From Brachybacterium halotolerans (GTDB taxonomy: Bacteria; Actinomycetota; Actinomycetes; Actinomycetales; Dermabacteraceae), in assembly GCF_016623465.1 (NCBI RefSeq), contig NZ_JAEDAJ010000008.1:62001-126000 (forward strand): a stretch of DNA of 64,000 nt, read 5' to 3'. Position 1 is the stretch's first letter. Every line of letters begins with the position of its first letter. The notes under the pieces were generated by a model. That model ran no database searches, was not told the DNA's origin, and saw only the letters and a list, made by a program, of their open reading frames with translations. Positions 60,602-64,000 of the stretch are shown here, in pieces. A program made the translations under genes and the position numbers.

Positions 60602-61432
60602 GTGGAGACCGGAGACGACGCCCGCGAGATCCCGCTCGGCGGAGGCAACGCGAGCGCGGGTGTGCTGCGCGTCGGCGACACCGTGCGCAAGCCGTGGCTC
60701 GCGGGCACGCCGCTCGTCGCCCGGTTCACTGAGGCGCTGCGCGCGGCGGGCATCGACGTCCCCGCCCACCTGGGCCGCGACGACAGGGGCCGACAGATCA
60801 TCGAGCACGTGCCGGGCGTCCTCGCGATGGACATGGGCCAGCTCGACGTCGGCCGGCTGGAGCGCGTCGGCCACCTGGTGCGCGCCGTGCACGAGGCGAG
60901 CGCCGCGCTGCCGAGGGACCGGTTCCCGCTCGGATCGACGTCGGAGACCGCGGCCGACCTGCATGAAGGACCCCGGCCGGACGGCGCCCGCTGGGAGGTG
61001 CTGCTTCCCGCCCCGACACCGCCCGAGCTGATCTGCCACCACGACATCGCTCCCTGGAACCTCCTGGTGGACGGCGAGCGGATGATCCTCATCGACCTCG
61101 ACGGCGCCGGGCCGAGCACTCGCGCCTGGGACCTCGCCTATGCGGCGCAGTCGTTCTCGGGCATGGTCGCCGGGGCCGACCCGGCGGACGTCGCCGTGCG
61201 CCTGCGGGCCCTCGTCGTGGACGGCTACGGGGCCGACGCCGACCTGCGCGTCCAGCTGCCGCGGCTCGTGGCCGAGCGCGCGCAGGCGATGCACGACCTG
61301 CTCGCGCGCTCGCACGCCGAGGGCAGGGAGCCGTGGGGGTCGATGTTCGTGACGGGGCACGGCGAGCACTGGCGGGCGGCGGCCGCGTTCGCCGCCGCCC
61401 ATGAGGAGGCGTGGCGCGACGCGCTCAGCTGA
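60602..61432 (+). CDS. Aminoglycoside phosphotransferase-fold small-molecule kinase
   Basis: A 276-residue protein of the APH/choline kinase-like fold. The catalytic loop is CHHDIAPWNLL (H-x-D-x4-N) and the metal-binding Asp is in ILIDLDGAG, followed by RAWDLAYA. The N-terminal nucleotide lobe is short. Substrate could be a sugar, amino alcohol or antibiotic; resistance should not be assumed. GTG at 60602 is preferred for its adjacent -10 box; an earlier GTG at 60554 is in frame. Confidence 0.83.
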   Translation: METGDDAREIPLGGGNASAGVLRVGDTVRKPWLAGTPLVARFTEALRAAGIDVPAHLGRDDRGRQIIEHVPGVLAMDMGQLDVGRLERVGHLVRAVHEASAALPRDRFPLGSTSETAADLHEGPRPDGARWEVLLPAPTPPELICHHDIAPWNLLVDGERMILIDLDGAGPSTRAWDLAYAAQSFSGMVAGADPADVAVRLRALVVDGYGADADLRVQLPRLVAERAQAMHDLLARSHAEGREPWGSMFVTGHGEHWRAAAAFAAAHEEAWRDALS

Positions 61433-61459
61433 GCGCGCGGAGGCCGTCGGCCGCCCCGG

Positions 61460-61472
61460 TACCCTCCGGGAC
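61460..61472 (+). promoter_or_regulatory. Leaderless -10 box for the MerR gene
   Basis: TACCCT at 61460-61465, seven bases before the ATG at 61473, without a ribosome site. Confidence 0.5.
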
Positions 61473-61991
61473 ATGGAGGCCGCCGACCAGCCCCGCACCG
61501 CCGCCGACCCGGACCGCGCCGACCGCTCCCCCGCGGACGCCGCCGCCGCGACCGGGCTCAGCCTCGACACCCTGCGCTACTACGAGAGGGAGGGGCTGAT
61601 CGGCCCGATCGCACGGGACGCCGGCGGCCGTCGCCGGTATTCCGCCGACGACGTGGCCTGGATCGGCATCGTCACCTGCCTGCGCGACGCCGGCCTCGGC
61701 ATCGAGGACCTGCGACGGTTCACGAGGCTGCTCACGCAGAGCGCGGATCCCACGGATCGCGTCGCCTTCCTGGAAGAGCGCCGCACCGAGCTCGAGGAGC
61801 GGCAGCGGGCGACGCGGAAGGCCCTCACGGTGCTCGACGACAAGATCGCCTACTACGGCGCGCGGACCGAGCGCAGGGGTGACGGTCGGGGGCGAGTCCG
61901 CCCCTCCGACGGCGTCGGCCCTCACCCCGCAGCGTCAAGGGTCTCTCTCTCCTCCGCCGTGAGCACGGTGGTCGCTCCTCGCCATGCCTGA
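61473..61991 (+). CDS. MerR-family regulator, AdhR/NmlR-like
   Basis: A 172-residue regulator. The helix-turn-helix and wing read TGLSLDTLRYYEREGLIGP and GGRRRYS; a dimerising coiled coil follows (FLEERRTELEERQRATRKA). Cys69 in WIGIVTCLRDAGLG matches by recall the conserved cysteine through which AdhR/NmlR proteins sense aldehydes and electrophiles. The last 24 codons overlap the convergent aldo/keto reductase. The likely target is the MerR-type operator at 62917-62932. Binding and signal are inferred. Confidence 0.87.
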   Translation: MEAADQPRTAADPDRADRSPADAAAATGLSLDTLRYYEREGLIGPIARDAGGRRRYSADDVAWIGIVTCLRDAGLGIEDLRRFTRLLTQSADPTDRVAFLEERRTELEERQRATRKALTVLDDKIAYYGARTERRGDGRGRVRPSDGVGPHPAASRVSLSSAVSTVVAPRHA

Positions 61992-62899
61992 TCGAGCTGC
62001 GAGATCCTGCTGCCGCCGATGATGGGCACCAGGGCGGGGGCACCGCCGGTGAGCCAGGCGAGCGCCACCTGGCCGCGGCTGAGCCCGCGCGCGCCGGCCA
62101 CCTCGGCGAGGGCGGTCATGCGCCTCTCGTTGCCGGGGTACCGGTACTCGGGGGCGAGCGGACGATCCGCGCGGTCGTAGGCGCCGCGCAGCAGCGGCGT
62201 GTAGACCCAGCCGGTCAGCGCGGGGTCCCGGCGCAGCAGGTCGAGCCCGTCGGCGCCGAGCATGCCGAGCTCCACGGGCTGGCCCTCGACCTCGGTGCCG
62301 GGCAGGGGCTGCAGGTAGGAGAAGCGCTGCTGGTAGGCCGACGGACCCGCCAGACCCGCGTCCCGGGCATGGAGCCGGGCCTCGGCGGCGCGCCAGGAGG
62401 GATGGTTCGACAGGCCCCAGGCGCGCACGCGCCCGTCGGCCACGAGGGACCCGAACGTCTCCACGACGTGCGTGAACGACACGTCATGGTCCTCGATGTG
62501 CGCCCAGTAGAGGTCGACGGCGTCGAGGCCGAGACGCTCGAGGCTGCGGGAGAGCGCGCGGTCGACCGCATCCGGCGACAGTCCCTCGAGATCGTCCGGG
62601 AACCCGCCGGGACGGTTCGGCTCGGCGCCGACCTTGGTGCCGATGCGGACCGGGGCGCCGGGGTTCGCGCGCAGCCAGCGGCCGATGACGGCCTCGCTCT
62701 GCCCGCCGAGGCCCGAGGGGTCCTGGTCGAAGTAGTAGTTGTCGGAGGTGTCGAGCCAGCGTCCGCCGAGCTCGACGAAGCGGTCCAGGAGCGCGAAGCT
62801 CTCGCGCTCGTCGAGGCGCGTGCCCATGTGCATGGTGCCGAGAGCGGGCGGTGCGGGCGTCGTCGGGAGGGCGGGTGCGGGTGCTGCGATGCGTGCCAT
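61922..62899 (-). CDS. Aldo/keto reductase, probable MerR target
   Basis: A 325-residue NADPH-type oxidoreductase. Family marks are WLDTSDNYYFDQ (Asp, Tyr), IGTKVG (Lys), YWAHIEDHD (His) and VPIIGGSRISQL (cofactor loop). It resembles Tas/YghZ-like or aldose dehydrogenase-type members; reactive aldehydes are plausible substrates. Three nearby ATGs are in frame (62911, 62905, 62899); 62899 is chosen because it lies seven bases after the -10 box of a clear MerR-type promoter, giving a leaderless message. Confidence 0.86.
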   Translation of the reverse strand: MARIAAPAPALPTTPAPPALGTMHMGTRLDERESFALLDRFVELGGRWLDTSDNYYFDQDPSGLGGQSEAVIGRWLRANPGAPVRIGTKVGAEPNRPGGFPDDLEGLSPDAVDRALSRSLERLGLDAVDLYWAHIEDHDVSFTHVVETFGSLVADGRVRAWGLSNHPSWRAAEARLHARDAGLAGPSAYQQRFSYLQPLPGTEVEGQPVELGMLGADGLDLLRRDPALTGWVYTPLLRGAYDRADRPLAPEYRYPGNERRMTALAEVAGARGLSRGQVALAWLTGGAPALVPIIGGSRISQLDQAWRGATTVLTAEERETLDAAG

Positions 62900-62937
62900 G
62901 CGCATGAGCATGGATGCTGGAGCGCGCTCCAGGTCAA
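62900..62937 (-). promoter_or_regulatory. MerR-type promoter of the aldo/keto reductase
   Basis: On the minus strand TTGACC (62937-62932), a 19-base spacer and CATGCT (62912-62907), then seven bases to the ATG at 62899. The long 19-base spacer filled by a dyad is the hallmark of MerR-activated promoters. Confidence 0.7.
62917..62932. promoter_or_regulatory. 16-bp MerR-type operator
   Basis: CTGGAGCGCGCTCCAG, a perfect palindrome. It occupies the spacer of the minus-strand promoter and overlaps the -35 position (62927-62932) of the plus-strand promoter. It resembles the CTTGGAGTTAACTCCAAG-type site of NmlR/AdhR. Confidence 0.75.
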
Positions 62938-62949
62938 GGGACCTCCGCG

Positions 62950-62961
62950 TAGCCTTCTCGG
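62950..62961 (+). promoter_or_regulatory. Leaderless -10 box of the uORF-EamA unit
   Basis: TAGCCT at 62950-62955 is followed by six bases and the ATG of a 15-codon ORF at 62962. Confidence 0.6.
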
Positions 62962-63009
62962 ATGCCACCCCGCACCTGCGCGACCACGAGGCCGGCCGAG
63001 CGCCCATGA
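62962..63009 (+). CDS. Leaderless 15-codon upstream ORF overlapping the EamA start
   Basis: ATG at 62962, six bases after a TAGCCT box, encodes MPPRTCATTRPAERP and stops at a TGA that shares bases with the ATG of the EamA gene (ATGA at 63006-63009). As the EamA gene itself has no good ribosome site, translation of this ORF could deliver ribosomes to it. The single Cys and the Arg/Pro/Thr-rich makeup may allow sensing by stalling, which is speculation. It was too short for ordinary gene finding. Confidence 0.55.
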   Translation: MPPRTCATTRPAERP

Positions 63010-63872
63010 CGCCCTCCGCCCTGGCGCTCGTGCTCACCGCCGCGGTGCTGCATGCCCTGTGGAACCTCGCCGCGAAGCGCGCGAGCGGCGACGGGTACGT
63101 GTTCGTGTGGTGGTACAACGTCTTCTCCGCGGTGCTGTGGCTGCCGCTGGGGCTCGTGCTCCTCGCCCGCGCAGGGTGGCCCTGGGGCTGGGAGCTGCTG
63201 GTGGGCCCCGCGGTCTCCGCGGTCTTCCACATCGCCTACCAGCTGTGCCTGCAGACGGGCTACCAGCGCGCCGACCTGGGCGTCGTCTACCCCGTCGCCC
63301 GCGGGACGGGCCCTCTGCTGACCGTCGTGCTCGCCCTCACGGTGCTCGGGGAGCGCCCCGGGTGGCCGGCGATCGCGGGCGCCGTGGTGGTGATCGCCGG
63401 CATCGTGGTGGTCGCGACCGGAGGTGCGCGCTCGCTGCACCATCGGGCATCGACGGGCATCGCCTGGGGCGCCGCGACCGGCGCCGGCATCGCCGCGTAC
63501 ACCCTCTGGGACGACCACGCGGTGACCACGTGGTCCCTCGCGCCCGTCGTCTACTTCTCCTTTGGCTGCACCCTGCAGGCGCTCGCGATGACGCCCGGCG
63601 CCCTGCGTCGAGGGCGCGCCGCGCCGGTGGGCGGGGTGCTGCGCCGGCGGTGGCGGGAGGTCGGCGTGGTCGCCGTGCTCTCGCCGCTCGCGTACGTCCT
63701 CGTGCTCGAGGCCATGCGGACCACGCCGGTCTCGCTCGTGGCACCCGCGCGCGAGTCCTCGATCGTGGTGGGATCGCTGCTGGCCTGGTGGCTGTTCCGC
63801 GAGCCCGACCCGGTGCGACGGGTGCTCGGGGCGGCGATCGTGCTGGGCGGCATCATCCTCATCGTGTCGTGA
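63006..63872 (+). CDS. EamA/DMT-family membrane exporter
   Basis: A 288-residue protein of the drug/metabolite transporter superfamily with ten predicted helices in two EamA repeats: ALALVLTAAVLHALWNLAAK opens the first, and GIAWGAATGAGIAAYTLWDD the second. It probably exports an amino acid or metabolite. The start at 63006 is placed by its ATGA overlap with the upstream ORF and by the family N-terminus; a longer frame to 62739 is antisense to the reductase and rejected. Its promoter faces the MerR operator. Confidence 0.87.
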   Translation: MTPSALALVLTAAVLHALWNLAAKRASGDGYVFVWWYNVFSAVLWLPLGLVLLARAGWPWGWELLVGPAVSAVFHIAYQLCLQTGYQRADLGVVYPVARGTGPLLTVVLALTVLGERPGWPAIAGAVVVIAGIVVVATGGARSLHHRASTGIAWGAATGAGIAAYTLWDDHAVTTWSLAPVVYFSFGCTLQALAMTPGALRRGRAAPVGGVLRRRWREVGVVAVLSPLAYVLVLEAMRTTPVSLVAPARESSIVVGSLLAWWLFREPDPVRRVLGAAIVLGGIILIVS

Positions 63873-63902
63873 TCCGGCCGGGCCTGTCGCGGACGGGCCA
63901 CG

Positions 63903-63940
63903 GGTGAGGAGCCGTGGCGATATCGCCATGGCTCCTCACC
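63903..63940. terminator. 38-bp near-perfect palindrome after the EamA gene
   Basis: GGTGAGGAGCC, TGGCGATATCGCCA and GGCTCCTCACC form a palindrome with one mismatch pair, 30 bases after the stop. It is a likely terminator without a U-tract. Bases 63941-64000 show nothing more. Confidence 0.65.
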
Positions 63941-64000
63941 AGCGGCCCTTCCGTGACAACCACCCGCCGACGCCCGGCCCGGCCCGGGTGCCCGTGCTCC

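Follow-up and report, generated by a model that had tools for sequence, protein, structure and literature searches.

A putative leaderless fore-cistron overlapping the start of an EamA-family exporter gene in Brachybacterium

How do ribosomes reach the start codon of an exporter gene whose ATG overlaps the stop codon of a frame of only 15 codons? The question is raised by a locus close to the end of the DNA analysed here, a stretch of 64,000 nucleotides from Brachybacterium halotolerans, to which we refer as the window. A preliminary description of this DNA had read there a -10-like hexamer, six bases, an ATG, 15 codons and a TGA/ATG overlap, and had named the downstream gene an EamA exporter; a re-reading of the sequence and a Pfam match (Table 1) bear out both the layout and the name. 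We consider it probable, from sequence comparison, that the 15-codon frame, hereafter the mini-ORF, is a leaderless fore-cistron serving to deliver ribosomes to the exporter by termination-reinitiation.

The proposed sequence of events is as follows. Transcription would start at, or no more than one base from, the ATG at 62962. Ribosomes would enter at the resulting 5'-terminal AUG without a Shine-Dalgarno (SD) sequence, read 15 codons of arbitrary sequence, stop at the TGA within ATGA (63006-63009), and then reinitiate at the exporter AUG that overlaps this stop. The exporter would then depend on translation of the mini-ORF, a step for which the basis is indirect, namely that the frame has been kept through at least seven changes of distance, and the peptide would have no function of its own.

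Layout of the locus and the weight of a single case

Table 1. Features of the exporter locus, in window coordinates
Feature	Position	Strand	Remarks
MerR-family regulator gene	61401..61991	+	Pfam MerR_1 8.1e-16; link to the operator putative
Aldo/keto reductase gene, divergent	61922..62899	-	Pfam Aldo_ket_red 1.1e-40; probable start ATG 62899
Putative MerR-type reductase promoter	62907..62937	-	Sequence reading: TTGACC, 19-nt spacer, CATGCT; palindrome CTGGAGCGCGCTCCAG at 62917-62932
-10-like hexamer TAGCCT	62950..62955	+	Six bases (TCTCGG) ahead of the mini-ORF ATG
Mini-ORF (putative fore-cistron), 15 codons, MPPRTCATTRPAERP	62962..63009	+	ATG 62962-62964, TGA 63007-63009
Weak SD-like GAG within the mini-ORF	62998..63000	+	5 nt ahead of the exporter ATG; by eye
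ATGA start/stop overlap, proposed reinitiation point	63006..63009	+	Common to mini-ORF stop and exporter start
EamA-family exporter gene, 288 aa	63006..63872	+	Pfam EamA 1.3e-22; full-length relatives align from residues 1-4

The nearest named relatives of the exporter are those of B. subflavum (91% identity) and B. endophyticum (80%). The hexamer TAGCCT recurs at the identical 6-nt spacing in genomes G026 and G017, and by eye no canonical -35 element was evident.

Taken alone, the arrangement in the window is not beyond chance, because control spacings in G026, a close relative, couple as often and open frames are cheap at this G+C content. The survey covered 560 kb of G026, with 359 genes having at least 20 nt of upstream sequence. 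With TANNNT at 5-8 nt, two of six mini-ORFs were coupled, one being the exporter locus and the other a one-codon ORF, while control spacings, taken in sets of four, gave 2/8, 2/14, 2/8 and 3/12; there was thus no excess of TANNNT-led couplings over the controls in these 560 kb, and coupled mini-ORFs as a frequent class in Brachybacterium were not seen there. The corresponding counts were one of two in 154 kb of G000 and one of three in 120 kb of G017, the coupled case being the exporter locus both times. An earlier version of the gene calls gave another coupled TANNNT frame in G017, of 44 codons, and coupled GANNNT frames in 7 of 22 cases (G000, G026 and G017), a figure that comes without control spacings. 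All of these surveys used a custom codon-usage caller rather than a standard program, and the three genomes have orthologous genes in common, so that junction and spacing counts are not fully independent. We also dropped CGA as a special last codon of the mini-ORF, since it is the commonest anyway (21 of 88 RTGA junctions between called genes).

Conservation of the overlap among Brachybacterium exporters

As judged from the orthologous loci, the conservation of the frame and of the 6-nt spacing, unlike the lone case, exceeds chance. A search of 38 Brachybacterium genomes returned an exporter match at E<=1e-30 in 22, of which 19 are close orthologues whose upstream sequence could be read. The three left out are L019 (genome G006), a partial match at a contig end without upstream sequence, and L020 and L021, distant homologues of 38-43% identity in which the start/stop overlap is absent. 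A short upstream frame whose stop overlaps the exporter start is present in all 19 close orthologues, related genomes that do not amount to 19 independent tests; the junction is RTGA in 18 and TGATGA in the remaining one (L007).

In 17 of the 19, the upstream frame is a mini-ORF of 9-23 codons (9 codons in three, 13 in one, 14 in two, 15 in seven, 16 in two, 18 in one and 23 in one). In every one of the 17 its RTG stands exactly 6 nt past a hexamer of the form [TG]ANNNT: GATACT in eight, TAGCCT and GAGACT in three each, GACACT in two and GACAAT in one. The start codon is ATG in 16 and GTG in L003. The preliminary description had proposed to look among relatives for a conserved frame and ATGA overlap, and had held that frame-breaking differences would speak against its reading; the frame is kept in 17/17 mini-ORFs, the stop forming RTGA in 16 and lying one codon earlier, as TGATGA, in L007, and no frame-breaking difference was seen among them. 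That description's reading, entry through a leaderless mini-ORF coupled to the exporter, is therefore supported by comparative evidence, that is, by frame and overlap in 17/17.

The start-to-start distance has changed at least seven times on the maximum-likelihood tree of the exporter, and the frame was kept each time. The chance of seven frame-keeping changes would be (1/3)^7 = 4.6e-4, a figure based on parsimony on one tree in which some forks are unresolved. In a tree-free version, the seven distinct distances require at least six changes, which gives 1.4e-3.

Is the spacing of the hexamer that of a leaderless gene? In spacing histograms (spacings 0 to 20) over 834 kb from G000, G026 and G017, TANNNT precedes an in-frame RTG 46, 34 and 15 times at 6, 7 and 8 nt, respectively, and the other spacings have counts of 0-6. 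Of 548 genes whose upstream sequence is 20 nt or longer, 79 have the motif at 6-7 nt, about one in seven, with orthologues counted more than once. Because TANNNT peaks 6-7 nt ahead of in-frame RTG, leaderless genes of this geometry seem to be common in Brachybacterium, as the sequences suggest. The hexamer of the window (TAG..T) is of the usual type. The hexamers of 14 of the 17 loci (GATACT, GACACT, GAGACT and GACAAT) do not fit TANNNT, and hexamers of the GANNNT class show no enrichment ahead of gene starts in the DNA sampled from G000, G026 and G017; therefore, the leaderless reading is weaker for these fourteen other genomes. In one of the fourteen, genome G016, GATACT N6 ATG nevertheless occurs 11 times if the exporter locus is counted; spacings apart from 6 and 7 average 2.6 occurrences, with 6 as the largest count (Poisson p ~8e-5; sites counted regardless of reading frame).

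Peptide, ribosome site and competing readings

If frame, spacing and overlap are conserved, is the peptide as well? Substitutions were compared in nine pairs of mini-ORFs of equal length, five of which have no branches in common: L001/L002 (from an unresolved trio), L008/L014, L009/L050, L012/L015 and L013/L016. In these five pairs, substitutions at codon positions 1, 2 and 3 number 12, 18 and 13 in the mini-ORF and 96, 72 and 293 in the exporter (third versus other positions, Fisher p = 2.9e-5), and the third-position excess is absent from the other four mini-ORF pairs too. Because substitutions are flat over codon positions, the peptide of the mini-ORF is, in these alignments, under no visible selection. 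The 12-nt block of hexamer plus spacer differs at 0-3 positions in the nine pairs, and the 40 bases ahead of it at 2-29, an ungapped count that is overstated where there are upstream indels (L001/L002, L003). The comparative evidence thus indicates that selection keeps the frame and the overlap rather than the peptide, and annotating such ORFs as translation-entry devices may be preferable to annotating them as small proteins.

These properties recall the 'coupled' leaderless small ORFs described in mycobacteria by Shell et al. (2015; PMC4633059). The sections of that paper used here define small ORFs of 5-50 codons, a range that includes the 15 codons of the window and the 9-23 of all 17 mini-ORFs, and an RTGA overlap, of which the ATGA at 63006-63009 is an instance. 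They also give one example of a conserved linkage with a peptide that is not conserved; a linkage kept while the peptide diverges, as in Brachybacterium, is what is reported for some members of the class. As far as those sections go, the class differs in being mycobacterial and in having mapped transcript starts, with the RTG at the transcript start, whereas the Brachybacterium frames are known from sequence comparison and their transcript starts are placed solely by the -10 spacing. In addition, a coupling excess is reported there (RTGA coupling in 23 of 220 leaderless small ORFs, compared with 32 of 1000 random sites), whereas the 560-kb sample of G026 has none. To what those sections hold, the present work adds 19 orthologues, length changes that stay in frame, and replacement by other short frames. 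The mini-ORF most likely belongs, on these likenesses, to the same class in another genus.

The principal alternative is that the mini-ORF is unused, that ribosomes start on the exporter directly, at its own AUG, and that ATGA is a by-product of Ser/Thr at codon 2. The four bases do arise easily when codon 2 is AGC or ACG, the 560-kb sample is without a coupling excess, and missing stops are uninformative; indeed, the openness of the frame was dropped as evidence, stops accounting for 1/230, 1/213 and 0/213 codons across the three frames, all equally open. The preliminary description had argued that the exporter lacks a good one, and the pairing with the anti-SD in the window is indeed weak but not exceptional: -4.9 kcal/mol over -18 to -4 (15 bases), with 45% of 351 called starts equal or weaker, and -2.2 kcal/mol over the narrower -14 to -4, with 38% equal or weaker. 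Since the window has middling SD pairing and L006 and L016 have good pairing, direct initiation could contribute. The pairing is nearly nil in L003, L007, L009 and L011, and the argument from a missing site is, by these estimates, a better fit to some relatives than to the window strain.

Against direct initiation stand these four loci, the frame kept through all of the distance changes, the persistence of the start codon and the 6-nt spacing while the mini-ORF diverges, and the presence in two lineages of another overlapping ORF in its place. On balance, direct initiation as the whole explanation is unlikely, and we retain the coupled mini-ORF as the preferred reading.

Could the exporter start be misplaced, or its accessibility be governed by folding? 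An N-terminal extension of the exporter was rejected, since the open exporter frames of 302-303 in L006, L008, L011, L014 and L016 extend only some 15-16 codons ahead of the start. In the window, folding around the start is ordinary (its openness falls at the 55th percentile of 250 sampled gene starts), as it is in 12 of the 17 loci; L006, L010, L016, L049 and L050 belong to the most closed 12%. In view of the lack of a consistent pattern over the 17 loci, mRNA folding was dropped as an explanation.

It could be argued that the chief role of the mini-ORF is to keep Rho from terminating transcription in a C-rich 5' leader, with reinitiation as a secondary matter. C does make up 52% and G 27% of the DNA of the 17 mini-ORFs, whereas generic leaders of 45 nt have 40% C and 31% G. 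Protection alone, however, would not call for a stop and a start that overlap exactly and in a single frame, and the shortest mini-ORFs, of 9 codons, would shield very little RNA, so that we regard this explanation as very improbable.

There is also the matter of cysteine. Canestrari et al. reportedly described cysteine-responsive leaderless attenuators in mycobacteria in 2020; these resemble the present case in being short leaderless ORFs that contain Cys, but the Brachybacterium mini-ORF has no conserved Cys and no Cys run. The window peptide does have one Cys, the relevance of which had been raised in the preliminary description, but Cys occurs in only 2 of the 17 peptides (L001 and L010), neither conserved Cys codons nor a Cys run was found among the 17, and the peptide is not conserved; the suggestion finds no support, and Cys sensing by the mini-ORF was dropped. 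That the mini-ORF acts as a sensor, attenuating in a peptide- or codon-dependent way and responding for instance to cysteine through its TGC codon, is hardly credible in spite of the mention of Cys-rich leaderless small ORFs in the mycobacterial paper (PMC4633059, in the part used here), given also the flat substitutions, the unremarkable fold of the window start region, and the eight Rfam matches listed (E<=1, 62700-64000), all of which fall below the gathering score and lie at 63872-63970, no earlier than the exporter stop, none of them overlapping the mini-ORF; a known RNA element was rejected as well.

Replacement frames and neighbouring genes

The two orthologues in which the mini-ORF is replaced deserve separate consideration. 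In B. endophyticum (L004/L030) a 57-codon frame (L030, 2331-2504) occupies its place, preceded by TAGCGT N6 ATG and ending in ATGA at the exporter. This frame aligns with the N-terminal portion of a G009 protein of the OsmC family (54% over residues 4-55; the L092 protein, Pfam OsmC 4.7e-12) and departs from it after SADPAFRG. The 57 residues alone have no Pfam match. The frame is possibly, to judge from this resemblance, a gene remnant kept for ribosome delivery. In genome G020 (L017), GGGAGGA leads a 5-codon ORF that ends in ATGA at the exporter, and the exporter AUG, with the spacing estimated by eye, is too distant from GGGAGGA for direct use. The OsmC-like stump and the SD-led 5-mer are ready-made comparisons for pure ribosome delivery by a short ORF, which is a proposed function of short ORFs according to the part consulted of a 2025 review (PMC12548453).

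Outside the genus we counted 15 loci (L018, L031, L032, L034, L037-L039 and L041-L048). This count leaves out the distant L022-L025 and L027 of other genera. Also dropped before any counting were L028 and seven duplicates that match a counted locus without a difference over 950 bases (L026, L029, L030, L033, L035, L036 and L040). The exporter start overlaps an upstream gene or relay in 4 of the 15. In L018 it overlaps the stop of an aldehyde dehydrogenase gene; in L034 (A. rupis) and L039 it overlaps genes for RpiR/SIS regulators (Pfam), directly so in L034; and in L037 (Actinocatenispora comari) the GTGA of an RpiR-family gene opens a 15-codon relay ORF, its region beginning 47 nt ahead of the exporter start, which ends in TGATG at the exporter. 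The other 11 showed no convincing upstream gene overlapping the exporter start. RTG frames do end at the exporter RTGA in L031, L041, L042 and L044, with 51, 119, 32 and 5 codons, respectively, from the nearest start, and were dismissed by eye as genes. On these comparisons, coupling of the exporter recurs beyond the genus, yet it is not universal.

It is tempting to go further and propose, as a tentative extension that we rate somewhat doubtful, that the exporter start is reached mainly through an overlapping upstream frame and that evolution fills this slot with whatever is available, making it a natural, swappable bicistronic entry module. The fillers would be the leaderless mini-ORF in 17 genomes, the OsmC-like stump, the SD-led 5-codon ORF and, at some loci beyond the genus, the RpiR regulator, the aldehyde dehydrogenase, or the regulator with its 15-codon relay (L037). 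If true, such a module would tie exporter synthesis in Brachybacterium to leaderless initiation.

Two further systems provide precedents for the preferred reading of a fore-cistron coupled by termination-reinitiation. In M. tuberculosis, uPPE2 is coupled to PPE2 by AUGA termination-reinitiation, and the dependence was measured by reporters (PMC11260477); there, too, the upstream ORF overlaps an SD-less start by AUGA, but uPPE2 has an SD of its own and sits in a B12 riboswitch leader. In C. glutamicum, a leaderless bicistronic design has been engineered (PMC10367133) which likewise couples a leaderless fore-cistron to a downstream gene; it differs in being engineered, in its built-in SD and in its TAATG junction. 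A limited literature search found no publication on the present exporter/mini-ORF locus.

The surroundings of the exporter vary. Exporters of the window group adjoin the reductase and MerR genes, and in L033, the sole locus of the other group that was read, the exporter adjoins a gene for a small membrane protein; no reductase or MerR match was found in fourteen loci of that group (1.5-2.5 kb flanks). We take the reductase promoter to be of the MerR type from its architecture and from the nearby MerR gene. TTGACC and the palindrome are also present in G026 and G017, with CATGCT as the hexamer in G026 and CAGGCT in G017. The reductase ATG stands 7 nt past CATGCT (62897-62937, minus strand), and the reductase may itself be leaderless and MerR-controlled, to go by these motifs. 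MerR control of the exporter in general is unlikely, the palindrome being at the place expected for the exporter's -35 element in L001 and L002 and well upstream in L003.

A second start/stop overlap was observed elsewhere in the window, at a gene that runs downwards from about 4893 on the minus strand and that we presumptively call LamB/YcsF-like from its sequence. In the window, as in G026 and G017, a GTG ORF precedes this gene, and its stop overlaps the start of the gene as ATGA; the ORF has 65, 49 and 67 codons in the three species, and the overlap is constant.
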